Source: Beroe forskalii (lineage: Eukaryota; Ctenophora; Nuda; Beroida; Beroidae). Taken from it: a stretch of 64,000 nt of DNA. Positions within the stretch are counted from its first letter, which is position 1; the number at the start of each line of letters is the position of its first letter. A model generated the notes under the pieces. That model had not been told where the DNA came from. It searched no databases and saw nothing but the letters and a program-made list of their open reading frames with translations. Below, piece after piece: positions 3,921-64,000 of the stretch. The stretch is taken from contig WFMF01000342.1 in assembly GCA_011033025.1 (NCBI GenBank), positions 62,001-126,000 of the forward strand. Direction: 5' to 3'. Both the position numbers and the translations under genes were made by a program.

Positions 3921-5510
3921 ATTTGATATCAAACATCCCAGTCACAGAGATCCTTTGGTGGCGTTTTCTCCTCTGTTCCTGCGTAGCTCTGCTCTATAAC
4001 CTGTTCAGTGAGCACCCTAAAGCCTTCCTTTCCGGATGGAAGGATCGGAGCCTCCTCCTGTCCGCCATGTTCGGAACAATAACAGCGTCCTGCACTGTCT
4101 TTGCTCTCAGGTATATGAAGAAATTGAGTGAATTTCCACCATTTTCAGGTCAAATCATTGTCAATCATAATCCTACCGCTGCCATTGATATCTTTCATTT
4201 TCAAGGAAAATTGCCACATGTGACTTCAATATGAAATAGTGTCGCGTCTCTAAAGCTCCTTCCCACAGGGTGTTACCCATAGGAGAAGCGACCCTCCTCC
4301 TCACAACAGCCCCCATCTTCACAGTCCTGCTGTCAGCAGCATTCCTCGGAGAGCACCTCAGGTGGACGGACCACCTGGCCCTCCTCACAGCCACCAGTGG
4401 GGTCGTGTTTGTAGCCAAACCAGACTTCCTCTTCCACAGCCCTTCCCCCTCCACCTCAACTACCACCACAATGTTCTACCTCGCCATAGGAGCCGCACTC
4501 GCCAGGGGCTTCTTCAAAGCCGCTAAGTTCGTGGCGGTCAGCGTGACAGGATCAGGAATCCTGACTCACGTGATAGTGATATACCTGTCCTGCATGGGGC
4601 TGACAGCTGTGTCTCTCATCAATCTCTACATCTACTGCAGAGCTAGTTATGGCGAATCACAGGAAAATGAAGAGGTCTTCACTATCCCTTCACCCAAGGT
4701 AATACGAATTACCAACAACGGATTACGGAGTTTTGAATTTAAGTTTGAAAATGCTCTTGTACGATTGAATTTGACATCACACGGTAATTGTAGGGATGCA
4801 AATGAGAAATGCCAGCATGGGCCATAAAGGTTAAATGGTATTTGGTAATCATTTATTACCTTTTGAATTTCTATGTTTCTAATCATCAAATTTCTCCTCA
4901 GAACGCATTGTTTCTGGTACTGATGTCAGTTTGCTACTTTCTACAACAACTTTGCGTTTGTGCAGCAATGAGGTAACTGAAATACAAATTACTGAATATT
5001 GACATATTTTCTGCAGAACTAGAAATTGATTTGGATGACATCATTTGCTGTATTTATTTTCTATTCTCAAATTTCTATTTCTTTAAATACGGGAACATGA
5101 TAACCTCATAAATAATACTGGAAGATAATATTGGTAACCTCATCAATCCGGGAACATGATAACCTCATCCATACGGGAAGATGATAACCTGATCAATAGC
5201 ATAACACAACACATCACACCGCAGGTTTGGAAAGCCAGCTAAAGCATCCCTCCTGAAGTACCTGGACATCGTCCTGCCCTTCGTATTCCAAATAACCATA
5301 TTCAGACAGTACCCTGACCTATGGGACATGGTGGGGTGTGTGCTCATCATAGGGTCCATGCTAACAGTAATCATGGTCAGGAGAACAGGGAAAGGTTCCA
5401 TGGTGGACGCCGGGGAACCTGGGGTCACTCTTAAGAGATCGTCCCTTTTAGGGGACTACAGCAAGTTGAATGGGGAGGAAGTGGCAGATGAGGAAGAGGA
5501 GGAGGAATAG
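3921..5510 (+). CDS. SLC35G-like EamA/DMT transporter (5' end missing)
   Basis: Four exons are visible: 3921-4110, 4269-4698, 4902-4972 and 5225-5510 (TAG stop). Each is bounded by AG and GT, and all join in frame, giving about 324 residues. The first exon starts after TTCTTTTCAG, two bases into a codon, so at least one upstream exon is missing. The second exon carries a typical EamA stretch, with PIGEAT, then a TAPIFTVLL helix, then AFLGEHLRW and SGVVFVAKPDFLF, as in SLC35G1-type members of the drug/metabolite transporter superfamily. Several hydrophobic helices follow. The C-terminus is a cytosolic-looking tail ending in about eight acidic residues. Family members are multipass membrane proteins; the substrate cannot be read from sequence. 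The SLC35G1 proteins I know are about 365 residues, so roughly 40 residues with the first helix are absent. A 41-bp tandem repeat containing AATAAA lies about 420 bp downstream. Confidence 0.82.
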
Positions 5511-11700: not shown

Positions 11701-14700
11701 CCATGAGATCAGGAAAATCATGTGTTTAGGTCAACAGACCTAATCTTTACACAGAGGTAGAGTTCTTTCGTAACACTGACATCATTAGCCCCATCAGTAC
11801 CAATAAAGAATCATCAGCAATGAATTGTCAGTTCTTACCCTAAGAGAGTTGAGCTTTGCGTCCAGTTTGGAGAAGTCAATGTCTGTATCCTGGTAGAGGT
11901 GCCTTGCAAGACTAATCACCACGATGTACTCACAGAGATCAACTAGACCGTCCTTGTTCACATCCATCACCTGTGATAATTAGGCGTAGTCAATAGTCAT
12001 CCATTAACACAGCACACCTAGGGGTTCATTTCAGTGTAGAGTGACCGACTCGTAATCAGGCTTAATTTCATACGTGCAAGTTTTTAGGGATAGAAAAGGT
12101 TAAGACGTAAATAGACTATGAAAGGTGCTTATTCAAGATTAATCTCGCCAGTGGGGTCCAACTCCTAGGTCCTTTTTTTATCTTTTCCCACAAATCGGAC
12201 CATCCTACCTGTACAGCGAAGGAAGGGTCAGAGCACTCCGAAACTAGTTCCTCCGCAAGACTATACGGCAGTGTTTCGGACTGGAGGGAGATGGCTCTGA
12301 ACCGCCTGCTGAGTTCCAACACACTGTCACGACCTAGCAGACTGCAGGGCGACTGAAATGAGGTGTTAAATGTGGTGTGTTGAAAATATAAATTGGGGAT
12401 TTTTCATTATCATTCATGATTATGAACAAAAAATATGAAAAAAAAACTACTAAACTATTAGCCACTATTCATCATGATATCCTAGAAGAGGATATATTCC
12501 TTCTGAATTAGGCAGAACTGCAGAAGTAATTCTAGAATGATTACACAAACCAACCCACTGCAACGTATGCCGAACTACACTAACCCTGTAGTTGGGACAC
12601 TTCCTGACAGTAATCTCGTTCATGACAATAGGTTGGGAGGACTGGGTTAGGAAAGCCTCGGAAGCCCCTGGCGTGGCACTGTTCTTCTTCCTGCTGTACA
12701 CCGTGGCTGTGGCACTGGTCCTACTGCCCGACCTCCTGTCCTCCAACATGAGGGAGTCATGGAGGTGGTGTGGCGGGGACTGGGAGACCAGGGTCTGGTG
12801 TCCTCGGGGTATGTCCGGCAGCGTCTGGAGCGACTGCAGGGGAGTGAGAGCTAAGTTCTCAAGATCAAGAGACTTTTTATTGAGAGACTTGTGGGTACTA
12901 GGTTTCAGTAAGGGGCACAGGGTGGTTATCTGTAGAGACCAGATTTTGGTCTTAACATGAGTAGGAAATAAAGACTTGCATCAGGTCGGAGTATAATTTG
13001 AATAAATGATTAAAATGGATTATTACCCTCCCGTGGCTCAAACTCCAGTGTGATAATTATCGATATATCACTCCTTTATAGGACTACTGAACAGTGGCGG
13101 AATAATAGCAGAAGAATATCGAAATAAATTGTTGATTTTATGATAATCTATAAAAACGCGAATTCAGACGAGGGTCGTATGGTAACTGTTTTGTCTATAA
13201 AATTAATTCATGAGCGATTGTGATATCGAAAATTGTCAAACTCGGCTGACGCCTCGTGTGATAATTTCGATATACCCCATTCGTTAATCGTACATTTGAG
13301 CTTCTTTTAGTGACCGTGTAAGTTTACGGTCTCCATTGAATTACAGTGTAAAAAGCTTAAAATGAAATTAGATTTTATAAAGGAGCACTCAAAATCTACT
13401 TAAACGTTGAATTCGGACGAGGTCGTCAGACCCGAGTGGGAAGAAATACTGTTGTTTGGTCAGAAAATAGTCGGCCATAGCTATTTCCGGTCGGGGGTAT
13501 AATCCGGTTCCATGATCTCAGCTGTGACCATACCTTCGAAATGATACGGAAGATAGCTTATTGGGATTAAAGATGTGATTCATACCATATCGCTGCTTGA
13601 ACGATGCTGTAACTTCAAGGAGGAACCAAGCATGAAGTACTCTTTTTCTGAGCGGTGTGGGACCACTCGCTGAAAAGGAATGTTCTGTCAATTGCCATGT
13701 GTTCAAAACGTCGTGCGCGCACCCTAAATGTTGAAGATATATCAAGATTTCATTTGGTAATCGGTAGCGTGCTGCGCGCGTACTTTTTCGCGTATTTAAC
13801 AAACCCTATTCAGACCTGGTGTTGCCATTTCTCGTCACGTTCTTTTGAGAAAAATACGCGCATTTTTCTCTAGGAGCCAATACGCTGTACTTTTTCCCGA
13901 TTTTTGCACGTTTTTAACAACCCTGGCTAAAGAACCATAACACATTCGGCTCCTCCAAGCGCAAAAAGAACCGGTACTGCAGCAGTACCTACCTCGATTG
14001 ATGACCTTTCAATAAAATGCTGTATGCTGGGTCTTCGAGTGTTCAATTCGTGATTTTAGACACTTTCAGTATCTCTGGTGTCCATTAAATCTTTAAACCA
14101 TTAAAAAATATTTGTTCCATTAACCCAATCTTATTAAACTGTGTTTTGTAGTTTCATGCTTTCATTGAGCGTCCTTTTGTCACACGACGCACTAATTCTA
14201 TCGTGCGGCAGCGTGACGCACGGAACTTAGACAAAATGATCTCGTGAATCGTGATATTCAATAATGGTTTATTGATTTGTTGTAGTGTTACTTTGCATTC
14301 CCCCGAAAATCATAACACCATCACTGCTCGTGAAGTTGGAGTTAGTTCTCCACATATCTACCTTTTCAGTGGTTTCAACATTTAAACTTAAAGTGTATGT
14401 TATTATGATCCACCGACCACCCGCAGTAATTATCTACTTAAAAATTCTGTCCAGTTCAAATTCCTAATTCTAACTATTTGATTATATAACAATTACCAGC
14501 CTGTTCGACACAAAGACGTGCTATAATATTGCCTGCCACAGTAGGTACTTCAGTAGCATAGCAATACAATGCAGGCTGATGACATTTTCGTCCCTTCTCA
14601 TCTCTCACCTACAGAAAGATACTGTCTGGTTACTTGGTGTATTATCACGATCCTAGTCGGACTTATCGGGTCAACCATCATCCTGCTGGTCACTTCCCAG

Positions 14701-17700
14701 CCTCGCGGTATATGTCTTGATCCTGTCAGCCTGGTGCTCATCCGAAACATTGCCGTCTGTGACATTGGTTTTATTCTCTTCGCATGCCTCCCTGTACTGG
14801 TAACGCTGACCATGAAAAGGTTCCCTCTGGCAATAGAAGCGTGCTACGTCATATCATACCTCAGGTCTCCCTGCATGGGCGTGGCCCTCCTACTGATCTG
14901 CTCCTTCCATGCTAACAAACTTTTTAGCATTGCCTATCCCATGCGAGCTCGGGTCATCAGAACAAGACGCGCCGGAATTACTATCAGTATAATTATGTGG
15001 TTCCTTTCTACTCCTGTCCTCGTCCCTAAGCTCATAATCAATCCGACGGACTTTGTGTTTAACAAAGAAGTTGTTTTCAAATGCCATTATGCTTTCCGAG
15101 ATCCTGTATGGAGGACACTGCAGCCTGTCACGAGTTTATTCATGATTGCAATCCCCAGTATCAGTGTGGCGTGTACGACTGTAGCCCTCCTGGTGTTAGC
15201 GAGGAAGGGTGGGAGACTGAGGGCGGCTGGGGTGCTAACAGCTGTCTATGTTGGGGCTGTCTACCTCCTGGCATACTTTCCCATAGGCATCTTCAGCATA
15301 CTACGCAGGACCGATGCTTACAGATCACATCCCAAATTCAGGCTATTTATTGGTGTTTACTTTTCTAAATTCGCCCACTTCATGACCTTGCTTAATGTAA
15401 TGGGCAACTTTTTTATTTACTACACTTCTCTGGAGAGTTTTAGAATTGCAGTTAAACGCTATTTCTTTGCCTGTATCCGGAGAGAACCTGCTGTACTCAT
15501 TCGTAATCAACACCCACCTACTCCTGGTATCAGGCTCAGGGTAGCAGCTGTTTCTCCGGAAAATCGTGAGTGACAATATTTTTCGAATGCAGCAATAACA
15601 AAAGGTCAATTCGCTTTAAAGTTTCTTGAATTCCCACTATCAGCTGCTAATAATATGGAGAAAGTGAGAAAATTCACAAAGTTTGTCATTTCTACTATAA
15701 GCGAATCACGTGAAACCACTCGTGCTAAAAATACTGTATTGTTGTACGAGAATAACAATTGACCTGTCAATGCAACTGGGTAGGTGTGAATTTTCGTAGC
15801 ATTTGGTAAGAATTGAAAAACAGCTGTTGTAAACACCACACGCCTCTTGTTGTAATACTTTTCAAACTTCTAATAGGATTTCAAAAGTTCGAGTAATCAT
15901 GTTCCTTCTCGTACTGTGCATCTGGGGGCTGATCGGGGCAATAGACTGTGATGAAATCGATGAAGAGGAAGTCAACTACGAGGATTACAAGATAATCCGT
16001 GTGCGACACCCCAGTGACTCGCTGATTGATTACATCGAGGCGCTGGTTGAAGCAGAGAAAGTTGATGTACTAACCCGAGGTTTGGACAACACTATGGATC
16101 TAATGGTGCCTTCGGAGTCTCATGACGTCATCAAGACCATCACCAGTTCCTGTGGTGAGGTGCAAGTCCTTCATGAAAACATGGAGGGCGTATTGGACGA
16201 TGTGGACAGTTTGATGACATGCAGTAGAACGAAAAGAGAGAAAAGATCGGGCAGCTACAACTTCCCACGATTTTTCAAATGTTACCACGAAGTGGAAGGC
16301 CAACATAAATTCCTGAAGGAACTAGCTAATGCACATCCCGATAAAGCTGAAACATTCAGCATTGGTACGTCCTACCAAGGCCGAGACCTTCTGGCGATCA
16401 GGATTAGTGAGAACGTGGGCAGCTCGCACAATAAACCAATGATATGGATTGATGGCAACATCCACGGCAGAGAGTGGATCTCATCCACAACAGCCCTGTG
16501 GATTGCTGGAGCTCTGTTGGGGGTTGTGGATAATGTCCAAACAGACGAAGTCCTGAGGAAGTACCAGATTGTAATCCTGCCCATGAGTAACCCAGACGGC
16601 TATGATTACTCTAGAATGTCTCGGCTTACCAGATTCTGGAGAAAAACCCGGAGTAAGATTGATTGCACGTTGTCAGAATGTGCGAAGGATATCAACAACG
16701 TGTTGTGCCGTGGTGTGGACCCCAACAGGAACTTTGACGCGGGTTTCCAAACTCACAATGACAAGTGTTCAGAAAGCTGGCCCGGGAAGTCAGCTTTCAG
16801 CGAGAAGAACACCCAAGCAATGCGGGACTTCCTGTCCGCTAACATCGACAAGATAAACTTGTACCTCAGCTACCACTCCTACTCCCAGCTGTTCCTGCGA
16901 CCGCTGGGCTGGAGGTACGTGCTGGGCCAGGAGTCATGGGACCACCAGGTAGCTGGGGAGGCATACACCGCAGCTGTGAAGGACACGCACGGCGTCGAGT
17001 ATGACAGTATGCGGAGTATGGAGCTGTACCCCAACCACGGCACCTCCATGGACTGGGTCTACCTCCAGGGGGTGACCCACTCCTACACTGTCGAGCTGAG
17101 GGATAAGGGCGAGCACCTCTTCTTCCTGCCCAAGGACCAGATCCAGCCTTGCGGAGAGGAGAATCTGAGGGGATTCCTAGCGCTGGTGGAACAGCTGAAA
17201 CAGGACTAGGCGCGATTCACTTGGTGTGCGAATAGTACAGAGATCAATGCTTTTTGTTTGATTTTCTGTTGAGGGACTGGGAGGGACTGAATCTTTGATG
17301 AAAGATAAATGTTAAACGATAAATGTTAAATGAATTTTAGTAGCTCAAAGCTGCCGACGGAAAATTGTGTTTATAAATTTCAAATAGTGTTTATATATTT
17401 CAAAAAGTGTTTATAAATTTCAAATAGTTGAAAGAATTCATTTTAAAAGCAACCAGAGCATTTTAAGGCTTAGCTGAGGCTGGCGACAGTTGTCGCCGTT
17501 ACGCCGCCCCTCGGCCTCCCGACGACCACATTGGAATTTGGAAATGAGCCAGCAGATTTTCTCAAAATCTCACATGTGGAACAACCTGAAACCTCAACGA
17601 TGGCTAGGGGTCAGAGCAGATAATCAGACTAGCAAAAATTCCAAAGTAGGCTATGAATTTCGTTCGAACGGAAACCACCGTCCGGGCTGTTCCACTGGTT

Positions 17701-30945: not shown

Positions 30946-31632
30946 GCTAATGACTGGCAGAAGGGGTGGTAATGACTGGCAGTAGGAGAGGTAATGACTG
31001 ATAGAAGGAGTGGTAATGACTGGCAAAAGGAGTGGTAATGACTGGCACAAGGAGTGGTAATGACAGGTAGAAAGAGTGGTAATGGCTGGCAAAAGGAGTG
31101 GAAATGGCTGGTGGAAAGAGTGGTAATGGCTGGCAAAAGGAGTGGAAATGGCTGGTGGAAAGAGTGGTAATGGCTGGCAAAAGGAGTGGTAATGACTGGC
31201 GAAAGGAGTGGTAATGACTGGCAAAAGAAGTGGTAATGACTGGCGAAAGGAGTGGAAATGGCTGGCACAAGGAGTGGTAATGACAGGTAGAAAGAGTGGT
31301 AATGGCTGGCAAAAGGAGTGGAAATGGCTGGCAAAAGGAGTGGTAATGACAGGTAGAAAGAGTGGTAATGGCTGGCAAAAGGAGTGGTAATGACTGGTAG
31401 AAGGAGTGGTAATGGCTGGCAGTAGGAGTAGTAATGGCTGGCAAAAGGAGTGGTAATGACTGGCAAAAGGAGTGGAAATGGCTGGCAAAAGGAGTGGAAA
31501 TGGCTCGTGGAAAGAGTGGTAATGACTGGCAAAAGGAGTGGAAATGGCTGGCATAAGGAGTGGTAATGGCTGACAGGAGTGGTAAAGGCTGACAAAAGGA
31601 GGCGTTAAATGGCTGGCAGAAGCCGTGGTAAT
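30946..31632. repeat. 21-bp minisatellite
   Basis: About 32 tandem copies of a 21-bp unit built on GGAGTGGTAATGACTGGC plus a variable three bases. Two main variants are interspersed, TAATGACTGGC and AAATGGCTGGC. Because 21 is a multiple of 3, all three minus-strand frames stay open for 235-260 codons (HYHSFCQPLPLLLP-like repeats). These are artefacts of the array, not genes. Confidence 0.95.
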
Positions 31633-33802
31633 GTTTACCAATGAACTTGAGCAAGTGGCAGTTTGACTGTGAAGTAGATTCAATTTAGATAGCACTATTG
31701 ATGGAACAACAGGCCTAGGTCACCATGTAAACGATATGGCTGCAAATTACTGTGACTTGTATAAGTGACAAGTGTAGTGGTGGCACTAGATCAACATTGC
31801 GACAGTAACTTGATATTGCTAACAAGTTAGTTAAGTAGTTACAAGATAGTCCAAGATAATTCATCGTTTGAAGAGTTGAGACTACTACTAAACGCCGTTT
31901 ATGATACCCATTCAGTAACTATCTGGGACACCTGTTTGATCCTTTAATAGGACATTTACTTTCAGTAAACAGCAAACGTTCTCAGCCAAACGATGACAGA
32001 AATAATATGGCAGTAGAGACAACTACAAAAAGCTTCGTGCTCGCTTTTTAAAAAGTGAAAAGGTCTTAGCAACGGAAAATCACAAAACTATGCACTAATG
32101 GATGTGCTACAGAGCATTGCAACTCGAAATATACAGAATGTGATTCTTTTAAGCTTTAAATAAATGTTAATAATCTTAAAGCGCATTGAATGAAAGACGA
32201 AATAATTCGGTTAAGACAATATTTGGAATATTTTAAACTTTTAAACTGCCTACAGAAAAACGTAGAATTGTTAGCACTCGGAAATCTGCCAGACTTCCGG
32301 GCGATCAAGTTGAAAAACATTCTTACTTTCTTAGATTACTTATCTGCTCACTGTATAGCATTTAATTCAATTCATGGAAAAGTGGATACGGTCAGTGTAA
32401 GAAAATCAAAACTTGCTGAAATCATCATTATTAACAGAAAGCAAAATCCAGTTACCTATGCAGACAGTTAGATAAAGAAGTGTTAGCTTTAATCTTAGAG
32501 AACTGATCAAGGAAGTAACACTGCTGCAACAAAGTAACAACGTGTATAAAATTGAGTAATATCACCAGCATCGCCACATTCGAAAGTTTCTTAATTTACC
32601 TACCGGCTTCCTTTAAATCGGAATACTCCCCCTTCGCAAACAAGATCACGGTACAAAAGCTCAACAAACAAGCAGTATTTGTGTTCGTTAGGGCCACGCG
32701 GCTCTCACACACAACACCACCTTGATCTGTTTTCTCAGCAGGGGGTTTCTACAACAAATAATCCTGTTGCACTGCGCTGCTGCTGTTGTTACTGTTGTGG
32801 AATGTTTCATCGGGAGTGGTTTTAAATTAAATTCACTTCATGAGTAGGGGCTTTTGCGCTAAAAACTTGTTTTTTAATAAAACAATTAGTTCAATTCTGG
32901 CAGTTTTATTTCTGTGATTTTGGACTTTTGTGACCCAAGTTTGAAGTTCCAGCTCCAACTATCCAAGGATATAAGGATGCAGTGATGCACTGCAATTTCT
33001 AATGAGTTCCCTAGAAGTTGACTGAATACTGCAAAACTCAACATATATCGTTTATTTCACCTACACGGTATGTAATAACTGTGATCTGTGATCTGGAAGA
33101 TGAACGTTATCAGGCACACGAAGCTCCGATGGGTATATATTAATATCGTTGGAGGGATTAATATAGCATTCTATTTTAGGCAGCACACTGATATCACAGT
33201 ACTCAATGAGTGGGCTGTCGGAGTGGGAAGCTACTTTCTACCCACAGGGTATTTATTAAAGGCGCAATGCTCGGCGGCTTCAGTGCCAGCTAAATTTAGA
33301 GCTTACGATCATACAGATCAGGTATTTATACCGGAATTATGCCAGCATGCTAGTCAACTTTATGATGAACTAGTTATCTAGCTCTACTTAAATTATGATT
33401 TAGTATTAAATGCCCATTTAGGAAAGGGCAATATGTATTTAGAGACTTCCAGGATTCAGGGTCCTAACTGCCTTTGAAGCTTCAGCCAAAGCTTATACTG
33501 CTCTGGAGTTGTTAGGGATAAATATTTTAATAAGATTTAAATCGTGTGACCATTCGAGCTAACATCCGAGCTGTAGGTAGGGTTAGTGTGTCTGATTCTA
33601 TGAGAATTAACTGAAAAACGCCAAGTTAGATAATGATGGAGGGAACGTAGCCAAGACATTACACTACTGTTGAGATGATTCGGGAAAGTATGATTATACC
33701 CGATCGAGTAGGAACCACTCAACTTTAGAACTGTAGAGAGTTGAGGTGATATATGATTATCTGGTACATGTCTGTGTAGTGAGTGTAGTCTAAGTCTCGC
33801 CT

Positions 33803-61416: not shown

Positions 61417-61464
61417 TTGTTATGTCAGAGAACGGAGACAGTGACGATCACTTCATGGACACTT

Positions 61465-61684
61465 CAGACCAACCACCCAGAGACCTGTAAGTTTGTGTTT
61501 GTGTGTCGGTTTGTCTGTCAGACCAACCACCCTGAGACGTGTAAGTGTGTGTTTGTGTGTCGGTTTGTCTGTCAGACCAACCACCCAGAGACCTGTAAGT
61601 CTGTGTCTGTGTGTCGGTTTGTCTGTCAGACCAACCTCCCAGAGACCTGTAAGTCTGTGTTTGCCTGTGTGTCGGTTTTTCTGC
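61465..61684. repeat. 54-bp tandem repeat with splice-donor-like core
   Basis: Four units start at 61465, 61519, 61573 and 61627; the last is 4 bp longer. Each contains GAGAC[CG]TGTAAGT and ends in GTCGGTTTGTCTGT. As 54 is a multiple of three, frames stay open and encode an 18-residue repeat (TNHPETCK...VCRFVCQ). I regard this as an array artefact. It lies about 350 bp before the retroelement ORF1. Confidence 0.9.
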
Positions 61685-61730
61685 CAGCCAACCAGAAAGT
61701 ATCTGTTATTGTCTTTTATTTTATCTCAAC

Positions 61731-61805
61731 GTTTACTGTCCGTTTAAAAGTTTACTGTCCGTTTAAAAGTTTACAGTCCGTTTAAAAGTTGACAGTCCAT
61801 CTTAA
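61731..61805. repeat. 19-bp tandem repeat
   Basis: Four copies of GTTTACTGTCCGTTTAAAA, progressively diverged to the right. Confidence 0.88.
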
Positions 61806-62032
61806 AGTTGACTGCATGTCTATTTTTCTCTATACTTGTTTGTCTGTTTGTCTTCTGTCTGTTCCCATTGTTTGTCTTACACTCATAACCATTATCTGAG
61901 ACTTGTAAGTGATTGCAATGTATCGTTACTGCCAGTTGTTTTACATTTCACCACATATCTTCTATCACAACGTTAATTTCTGGTTACTTTCGATTGTTTT
62001 GTCTCCGTTTGATCAGTTTTTTGGTCGCCTAA

Positions 62033-63570
62033 TTTTCCTCACTTACCAAACTTAATCATGAAATACTGGATCAGATTAAAGCCCTGGAAAAGCTAACCAA
62101 GGATCAGTCTAATGCTTTCAACATTGAAGTTGGTAAAGTTATCACTGAACTGAAGTCCAAACAAATCAATGCCTGTTCTGACCCAGTAAACCAGGAAAAT
62201 GGGCCCACAGCTAACAAACCACCTGTTTATAAGTTTAACCCTAGTACTTGCAAGCCAATCAAAGATTATGGAGAAAACTTTCTAACTGAAACAAATCATA
62301 CCCAAGTTTTTAACTTCCTGGAAAACTGCAAGGATTTTCAGACTATCACATCAGGAGGCAGTAGCAGAGATGTTGCGTATTATGGAGAGTTTAGGTATCG
62401 GTATGGAGCTATTCAGCATGATGCTAATCCTGTACCCAAGGCTCTTGAACCTATCATGAAACAATTGTCAACAAAATACCCAAACACAGTTGTTAACTCT
62501 TGCCTCATCACTAAATACAAGAATGGGTCCAATATTTGCCCAAGTCACAGTGATGATGAGGCTTTTTTATTGCCCCTTGCTCTGATATATTTACTCTATC
62601 CATTGGCACAGAAAGACCTATGCTTTTCAAATCTTCCTCAGGGGATGAGCAGTCTATAAGTTTAGCTGACAATAGTCTCCTCTCTTTCTCACGGGCATCA
62701 CAAAACTTTTGGAAACATGAGATACCAGAGAATGGATGCTCCACTACCAGGTACAGCATCACATTCAGACAGTTAGCACCTTATTATCTCAACTCAACAT
62801 TGGTTGTTGGTGATTCCAACACTCAAAACCTCAAATTTGGTGCAGGTAGAAATACATTTGGGGTCTGGATGCCGGGTTGTAGGGTAAAGGCAGGGAAGAT
62901 TGATGATATTCCCAAACCTGATGATTTGGATTATCCATATCGTAACCTGGTAGTACACTGTGGAATTAACGATATAAGGGACAGACATCATCTCCCCATT
63001 CCAGCATTAGCTGGAAAGCTAGAGCAGAAATGTTTGGCCCCTACAGTCCAAATTCCCAGATATGAGAATCTTTGTCAGCTCACTTCTTCCCACTAAGGAC
63101 CCAGGTCTCAATTCAATTGTCTGTGAATTCAATAGGGAATTAGAAGCTTTGTGAGTAGGAATACTAATATGTATATGATCTCTCATGATCACAATCTTGC
63201 AAATAGCTCTGGCTTGCTGGCCCATGATCTGGGACGCCATTACCAGGATGGAGGAGCCAAGGTGTTTGATACTGTGCATCTAGGATCCAGAGGAATCTCA
63301 ATCTTTTGCTCCAATATCAAAAACAGTATTATCAAGAAGAAACCAGCCAATAAGTCTGATGATGTGAATGCTAGAAGTCATCATCCAGCCAACAGCAAAG
63401 CAGTTGACCAAAGCTCTCAGTACTGGAATCCTAATCCCAAATATAGACCTAGCAACCGCCCCCTTCCAGCCCATCCATACCCTTGGACTGGCAATCATCA
63501 AGAAAATTTTCCATCAGGACGCTCTCAAAACTTTGAAATGTATAATTTGAACAATGGATACCAACCCTAA
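62033..63570 (+). pseudogene. Retroelement ORF1: AlkB dioxygenase-SGNH hydrolase, frameshifted
   Basis: Coding sequence runs from 62033 in one frame, moves by one base within the T run at 62563-62568, again at about 63034-63048, and again at about 63148, ending at TAA 63568-63570. The first part (about residues 8-40) is Lys/Glu/Leu-rich and probably helical. The AlkB core has YYGEFRYRYGAI, SCLITKYKNGSNICPSHSDDE with the iron ligands H (62546) and D (62552), LSIGTERPMLF after the frame change, the distal iron ligand H at 62716, and RYSITFR with the 2-oxoglutarate-binding Arg at 62767. The SGNH part has GDSN (nucleophile Ser at 62815), GIND (62962-62973) and the D-x2-H catalytic block (D 63268, H 63277). 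A Pro/Asn-rich tail follows. All expected catalytic residues survive. AlkB enzymes oxidatively remove methyl groups from damaged or modified DNA and RNA; SGNH domains hydrolyse esters. Roles in retrotransposition are inferred. Confidence 0.83.
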
Positions 63571-64000
63571 CCTGGCTACTATGCGTGAACCATGTGAGAA
63601 CTGCTCTAAAGATATCTTCACTCATCAAAAAGTCTTGATGTGTTCATCTTGTAACAAAATTCTGCATCACAAATGTGGTAAACATATTTTTGAATATGAT
63701 CAAACTGTTGACCAGTGGTTTTGCTGTGACTGTCGAGCTATGAAGGTAGTCACATATTCCCCATTTAGTTCCATAAGCTATAATAAATATAGTCCTGATG
63801 ACCCTGAAGCTTATGCTGAGATCGAGAAAATAAAAAATTCTCTAAAAAATTGCCAGCATATGTCTAACAAACTGATAAATGCCAAAAACTTTGGTTTTGA
63901 TAAACGGCCTTTGGCCATTTTTTCTAATAATATTGATGGAATGGCACAAAATTTTGATACTGCACTTGCAAAATTATCCCTGCTTCGCAATAAATTTGAT
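63554..64000 (+). CDS. Retroelement ORF2 (partial): PHD finger and AP-endonuclease start
   Basis: Open from ATG 63554 to the window end, 149 codons, in the frame +1 relative to the end of ORF1 and overlapping it by 17 bases. Residues 14-60 form a C4HC3 PHD finger: C14, C17, C30, C33, H38, C41, C57 and C60, with W55 two residues before C57. A charged linker follows. From about residue 120, PLAIFSNNIDGMAQNFD resembles the first strand of LINE apurinic-like endonucleases. The reverse transcriptase should follow outside the window. PHD fingers usually read histone tails, so it could guide target choice; this is inference. Confidence 0.85.
   Translation, partial: MDTNPNLATMREPCENCSKDIFTHQKVLMCSSCNKILHHKCGKHIFEYDQTVDQWFCCDCRAMKVVTYSPFSSISYNKYSPDDPEAYAEIEKIKNSLKNCQHMSNKLINAKNFGFDKRPLAIFSNNIDGMAQNFDTALAKLSLLRNKFD

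Follow-up and report, generated by a model that had tools for sequence, protein, structure and literature searches.

Does a long interspersed nuclear element (LINE) in the ctenophore Beroe forskalii encode its own AlkB-type dioxygenase, and what might such an enzyme do for the element? The question arises near the end of a 64,000-nucleotide (nt) stretch of contig WFMF01000342.1 (positions 62,001 to 126,000, forward strand; hereafter the window). From sequence alone, an original prediction had placed an AlkB-type demethylase fused to an SGNH hydrolase there, in the first open reading frame (ORF1) of a LINE. AlkB-type enzymes clear methyl damage from DNA and RNA. Here, we show that the two enzymes are fused in ORF1 of this element, that the fusion is conserved and under purifying selection, and that, by prediction, they take the corresponding folds. 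We propose, with a probability of about 0.5, that an AlkB domain nearest to ALKBH2/ALKBH3, in tandem with an SGNH esterase, clears methyl groups from the element's single-stranded template.

The AlkB-SGNH fusion in LINE ORF1

The fusion is demonstrated by sister copies in the 216-Mb assembly (G000; the window lies on its contig C406), including L010, which is 99.35% identical to the window copy over 4157 bp. A genome search with the AlkB piece of the window gave at least 148 matches (150 of 187 candidates were scored), many in open frames of 500 to 860 amino acids (aa). Both ORFs are open in five of 20 fetched places (L019, L020, L021, L022, and L027), with an ORF1 of 692 to 738 aa and an ORF2 of 1145 to 1200 aa; some of the remaining places are broken or truncated. 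The Pfam family 2OG-FeII_Oxy_2 (PF13532) scored above its cut-off in all five ORF1s scanned from other copies (E values 1.4e-14 to 4.6e-18). All three open ORF2s scanned matched Exo_endo_phos (5.9e-5 to 1.1e-6) and RVT_1 (8.6e-35 to 4.6e-36). By its sequence, the element is a LINE with two ORFs, the second encoding a predicted APE-like endonuclease (EN) and reverse transcriptase (RT). The label CR1/L2 (Jockey superfamily) is provisional, being taken from this architecture and not from RT placement.

AlkB, SGNH, and RT frequently go together. The union of two genome searches gives at least 178 AlkB places, a figure that also covers host genes and Helitrons; many of the places are in long open frames next to an SGNH. 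There are also at least 148 SGNH and at least 135 RT matches. Co-localisation was counted for 50 SGNH rows in stop-free frames of at least 500 aa, leaving aside two rows of that length interrupted by stops, and for 23 RT rows of at least 900 aa. Among the matches listed, an AlkB match lies within 700 nt upstream of 49/50 of these SGNH matches. The original prediction had asked whether AlkB hits lie upstream of RTs: among the matches listed, they do so within 4.5 kb for 12 of the 17 RT matches in frames of at least 1000 aa, and 14 of the 23 RT frames of at least 900 aa have an AlkB. An earlier count, from an incomplete AlkB list, gave 85/129 places (129 hand-merged from 148 rows).

The copy in the window has the following features:

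62033-63570, + strand: ORF1 sequence run of the window copy, with AlkB motifs, then SGNH motifs, then a stop (translation)
62033-64000 and on past the window to about 68122 (window coordinate), + strand: 5'-truncated LINE copy, LINE-A type (blastn to sister copy L010)
62240-62782, limits approximate, + strand: AlkB-type 2-oxoglutarate (2OG)-Fe(II) dioxygenase domain of ORF1 (PF13532 on both halves; limits transferred from L010 residues 247-426)
62546-62560, + strand: HSDDE, with the iron ligands His and Asp of HxD (translation; both columns 53/53 in alignment A1)
62716-62718, + strand: distal iron-ligand His (translation; column 53/53 in A1)
62749-62769, + strand: RYSITFR, the 2-oxoglutarate-binding RxxxxxR (translation; both Arg columns 53/53 in A1)
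62788-63333, limits approximate, + strand: SGNH hydrolase (GDSL esterase) domain of ORF1 (motifs; weak Lipase_GDSL_2 in sister copies; strong fold match of a relative's model)
62809-62820, 62962-62973, and 63268-63279, + strand: SGNH motifs GDSN, GIND, and DTVH, respectively (translation)
63334-63570, + strand: C-terminal tail of ORF1 with stop at 63568-63570 (end identical to the open ORF1 of L002 and L010)
63554-64000, + strand: start of ORF2 from its first ATG, overlapping ORF1 by 17 nt (most of EN-RT lies beyond the window)
about 63590-63740, + strand: PHD-like zinc finger of ORF2, then the start of the endonuclease (Pfam PHD 0.037, sub-threshold)

The AlkB ligands, the GDSN, GIND, and D-x2-H blocks, and an ORF2 with a PHD-like finger were thus all found where they had been predicted. 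The fusion itself holds for the element, but the window copy is not one open frame. Its AlkB frame switches once, shortly after HSDDE, which leaves the AlkB motifs in two frames, and about 63030-63160 of its SGNH part is in yet another reading frame; ORF1 is therefore broken in this copy. Pfam 2OG-FeII_Oxy_2 matches each AlkB half without reaching the family cut-off (E values 1.5e-4 and 2.2e-6), and NCBIfam has no family for the window ORF1 pieces.

The predicted region began at 62033. The element sequence does start there, and the alignment to L010 begins exactly at that position, but the copy is 5'-truncated. L010, L011, and L012 have a common full 5' end, and the full element is therefore about 6.5 kb. 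Due to the truncation, the window ORF1 lacks its zinc-finger-like N-terminus and some of its helical region. Two further aligned pieces reach L009:8590, with about 440 nt between them not in common, and the copy ends about 4 kb past the window. We found no convincing target-site duplication around the insertion of the window copy; L010 has a 10-nt repeat that does not abut its aligned 3' end. Tandem repeats (54 bp × 4.2 and 19 bp × 4.4) occupy window 61464-61814, shortly upstream of the insertion point.

Of the PHD finger and endonuclease proposed for ORF2, the endonuclease stands, through the Exo_endo_phos matches of sister ORF2s, whereas Pfam matches to the PHD finger are sub-threshold only; PF00628 was found in 4/53 ORF1s at E 0.01 or better. 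At L028:1526-4102, a single ORF1 frame joins a PHD-like finger, AlkB, and SGNH to what resembles, by eye, the C-terminal end of ORF2, as an internal deletion of the element would produce.

Taken alone, the window copy, with its frame broken in two places, might suggest a chance insertion or an assembly artefact beside a host ALKBH gene. This is extremely improbable. Other copies carry the AlkB, the genome-wide AlkB places lie in many cases in long open frames with an adjoining SGNH, and AlkB plus SGNH proteins occur in independent public data; on these grounds, we reject it. Furthermore, host ALKBH-like genes are separate and lie outside the LINE branch. Thus, neither outcome named at the start as fatal, other copies without AlkB or an AlkB belonging to a host ALKBH gene, occurred.

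Conservation, selection, and predicted folds

Alignment A1 comprises 53 rows carrying an ORF1 with AlkB and SGNH. The AlkB iron ligands (HxD and the distal His) and both Arg of RxxxxxR are present in 53/53 rows. The SGNH catalytic Ser (GDS), Gly, Asn, and His also occur in every row, and the Asp in 51/53. Lipase_GDSL_2 (Pfam) matches 17/53 A1 members at E 0.01 or better, and its match to L010 is below the curated cut-off (17.1 vs 32.9 bits). The hidden Markov model searches suggested for the three domains were therefore clear for 2OG-FeII_Oxy_2 in sister copies, weak for SGNH, and sub-threshold for PHD.

We estimated the ratio of nonsynonymous to synonymous substitution rates (dN/dS) from 10 open ORF1s of this genome (45 pairs), taking the AlkB figures from the six pairs with an AlkB dS below 2. 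AlkB dN/dS is 0.07-0.11 in these pairs. The SGNH ratio is 0.04-0.19 in four of the six, synonymous sites being saturated in the other two, and the ORF2 ratio is 0.07-0.18 in the unsaturated pairs (3/10). At the sequence level, this shows purifying selection on the AlkB about as firm as that on the rest of the element.

In fold tests by prediction, which had been suggested for the dioxygenase, the AlkB part is close to solved AlkB proteins, and the esterase part has an SGNH hydrolase fold. The best sequence and fold neighbours of the AlkB part are ALKBH2/ALKBH3. ALKBH5 has a lower Z score, and a profile search up to E 0.01 gave no match to ALKBH5 or FTO. The HxD(D/N)E signature of the element also resembles those of human ALKBH3 (HSDDE) and ALKBH2 (HRDDE). 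According to their entry titles, the matched structures are ALKBH2 with double-stranded DNA and ALKBH3 with single-stranded DNA, and include DNA containing 1-methyladenine (m1A) and 3-methylcytosine (m3C). The originally proposed removal of m1A/m3C-type marks from RNA or target-primed complementary DNA (cDNA) is compatible with this predicted affinity.

A different possibility is that the AlkB erases N6-methyladenosine (m6A) or another host mark from the element RNA, which would allow the element to avoid silencing or sequestration by host readers. Such an escape has been proposed for an ALKBH5-like enzyme encoded by orchid Gypsy elements, which shows m6A demethylase activity in vitro (passages of PMC9289625). 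There is also a crystal structure of E. coli AlkB with m6A-containing DNA (4nid, entry title). However, the ALKBH2/ALKBH3 neighbours, the lower Z of ALKBH5, the profile search, and the HxD(D/N)E signature all count against it, and we consider such an escape unlikely.

Other carriers and the origin of the AlkB

A second LINE type (L030 and L032) has an ORF1 of 522-557 aa, with AlkB (4.8e-22 and 1.1e-20) followed by an SGNH-like region that is called by motif (Pfam 0.039 in L032, no match in L030). Over 641 residues, its ORF2 shares 27% identity with the first-type ORF2, and no PHD match was found in ORF2 of L030 or L032. Other LINEs of this genome (L037:449-1645 and L038:460-1680) have an SGNH ORF1 of about 400 aa with no AlkB and a different RT; their type of esterase is related to that of the AlkB-type element (24% over 184 aa, E 3e-11).

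The enzyme pair is also found in a Helitron:

L029:877-6003 and L042 (G000:C847:364800-376500): Helitron

One 2026-aa frame encodes SGNH, AlkB, a proline-rich repeat region, DUF6570, and Helitron_like_N (PF14214 at 3e-25), with PIF1 (PF05970, 2.6e-25) in the overlapping next frame. SGNH here precedes AlkB, the reverse of the order in LINE ORF1. The first two Helitron domains (SGNH and AlkB) occur at L031 (G000:C225) as well. An independent public protein of 2304 aa, P0046, has Pfam SGNH, AlkB, DUF6570, Helitron_like_N, and PIF1, in an order read by eye; the protein in its predicted form begins after the GDS block.

The Helitron, a DNA element, and the DNA-bound ALKBH2 and ALKBH3 structures raise the possibility that the substrate of the AlkB is not RNA but DNA, either integration-site DNA or cDNA, with repair taking place during target-primed reverse transcription. 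However, LINE ORF1 proteins are presumed to package element RNA (passages of PMC3905857), so RNA would be the nearest substrate. We regard a DNA substrate as decidedly unlikely.

Public data contain 44 relatives of the first-type ORF1 at E 1e-3 and 46 found by the second-type profile, all with PF13532 and all known as proteins alone; P0044 and P0045 were left unplaced between the two LINE types. Two scans of viral contigs and one of prokaryote genome contigs with single proteins, which detect close relatives only, gave no relative.

A phylogeny against cellular ALKBH proteins had been suggested. In a tree of 55 AlkB domains, which covered host ALKBH2/3-like loci as well as human ALKBH2 and ALKBH3, the LINE rows group in a single branch (99/97) that contains neither. 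LINE types A and B share this single branch (99/97), also with Helitron P0046 (99/97), whereas the separate host-like loci L033-L036 group with ALKBH2/3. The placement of the two Helitron AlkBs of this genome is unsure. They stand beside ALKBH2 on a long branch (95/79). The SGNH-AlkB piece of the genome's own Helitron matches LINE AlkBs better (best 2.1e-17) than a host ALKBH2-like locus (5.3e-11), which counts against that position. In topology tests, a tree with all mobile AlkBs in one clade was not rejected (approximately unbiased test, p-AU 0.51), and the same held for a tree that unites the three Helitrons (p 0.19). An ALKBH5/m6A-type origin, as in orchids, is not favoured, since sequence and fold are nearest to ALKBH2/3.

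The A1 profile matches a solved "ORF1-encoded protein" (4c1b) at 1.5e-5, which we take to be the esterase of zebrafish ZfL2-1. In type IV esterase ORF1s of CR1/L2/RTEX elements, ZfL2-1 among them, a helical (coiled-coil) part likewise precedes an SGNH esterase, and ORF2 of such LINEs has an APE-like endonuclease and RT (passages of PMC3905857 and PMC4120745). The element described here differs in having an AlkB dioxygenase directly ahead of the esterase. "Dioxygenase" or "oxygenase" appears 0 times in the main text of a survey of 448 Jockey-superfamily elements (PMC4120745). Passages of that survey place esterase ORF1s in vertebrate groups only, whereas passages of PMC3905857 place them in many animal phyla.

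Among described elements, the closest counterpart is the AlkB ORF of orchid Gypsy elements. Phalaenopsis Ty3/Gypsy elements, as described in passages of PMC9289625, also carry and keep an AlkB-family enzyme, but they are long terminal repeat (LTR) elements with a separate, ALKBH5-like AlkB ORF nested within Arabidopsis ALKBH5 homologs; here, an EN-RT LINE has an AlkB nearest to ALKBH2/3 and fused to SGNH in ORF1. Cellular ALKBH2/ALKBH3, in contrast, are cellular repair enzymes outside the LINE branch (99/97). Some plant RNA viruses (Alphaflexiviridae, Betaflexiviridae, and Closteroviridae) replicate with no reverse transcription. As RNA-genome parasites encoding AlkB, they provide an analogy only (passages of PMC9289625). 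Fish Helitrons associated with an SGNH hydrolase gene (texim genes) resemble the Helitron above, but the abstract of PMC4021074 makes no mention of AlkB, whereas here SGNH and AlkB precede DUF6570 and Helitron_like_N. Bdelloid LTR elements have GDSL and exonuclease ORFs in common with other retroelements, with no AlkB or dioxygenase in the main text of PMC5408684, and passages of a krill genome paper name alkB2 as a host gene (PMC11294593). Among the papers listed from the open-licence PMC literature, none was found to describe AlkB in a LINE or Helitron; this is a body of text that leaves Repbase and most subscription papers outside.

Elsewhere in the window, single open frames encode a rhodopsin-type G protein-coupled receptor (14557-15573) and an M14 zinc carboxypeptidase (15833-17209), and an EamA transporter piece lies at 4240-4827. 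Tandem arrays with 17-bp and 22-bp units (83-508 and 30948-31633) produce spurious long ORFs. The mitochondrial contig L041 (G000:C1134, 13339 bp) has a divergent COX1 with AGA/AGG at conserved Arg positions, which presumably points to a non-bilaterian mitochondrial code and, taken with the shortness of the contig, to a ctenophore host.

A possible role on single-stranded intermediates

How might the two enzymes serve the LINE? By analogy with other LINEs, the ORF1 protein would sit on the element's own RNA in a ribonucleoprotein (RNP). The esterase might target or handle lipid membranes, as proposed for the ZfL2-1 esterase of fish, which binds phospholipids and is proposed to act at membranes (passages of PMC3905857 and PMC4120745). 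The AlkB would oxidatively strip the single-stranded RNA template of Watson-Crick-face methyls such as those of m1A and m3C, and might also clear single-stranded cDNA. Such removal would be useful because lesions of this kind stop reverse transcription. Helitrons move through single-stranded DNA; thus, a Helitron with both enzymes in reverse order fits a job on single-stranded intermediates.

Several observations weigh against this template-clearing role. Among the matches listed, C247, an SGNH match with a long frame, has no AlkB, and for five of the 17 RT matches in frames of at least 1000 aa the preceding 4.5 kb contain no AlkB match. In one case (C168), SGNH matches lie upstream without AlkB; two others of the five (L039 and L040) have no frame of at least 150 aa upstream of ORF2, which could reflect truncation or decay. 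LINEs with SGNH and without AlkB exist in the same genome (L037 and L038). The dN/dS pairs were chosen among open-frame copies, and the role of the ORF1 protein in RNP formation is borrowed from other LINEs. Within the AlkB, the Asn position of N-x-Y, which helps hold 2-oxoglutarate, is Thr in 35/53 A1 rows, Asn in 16/53, and Ser in 2/53 (the Tyr is kept in 51/53), and the expected base-stacking aromatic, at what we assume to be its position in A1, is Tyr in only 35/53. AlkB substrate choice is therefore not readable from sequence.

The same two variable positions might indicate that the AlkB fold is a nucleic-acid- or protein-binding module, or a protein modifier, with nucleic-acid demethylation not being the selected function. 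However, iron ligands and RxxxxxR kept in every row would be needless for pure binding, and we think this improbable.

Returning to methyl removal from the template, the fusion of AlkB to an esterase suggests that some mobile elements carry the means to repair the single-stranded copies through which they pass. More tentatively, and at somewhat less than even odds, AlkB and SGNH may be an exchangeable pair that serves mobile elements as unrelated as LINEs (two types) and a Helitron, in either order, and gives them their own direct-reversal repair of single-stranded replication intermediates, perhaps at lipid- or membrane-bound RNPs.

LINEs are usually thought to depend on their host for nucleic-acid repair. 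If the conserved and selected AlkB of ORF1 has the proposed role, retrotransposition would be genuinely hindered by methyl marks or chemical damage on its RNA template, an idea that could be tested directly with one small enzyme. That a Helitron has both enzymes as well suggests a need common to elements that pass through single-stranded intermediates, which agrees with the occurrence of AlkB domains in plant RNA viruses and in orchid Gypsy elements.
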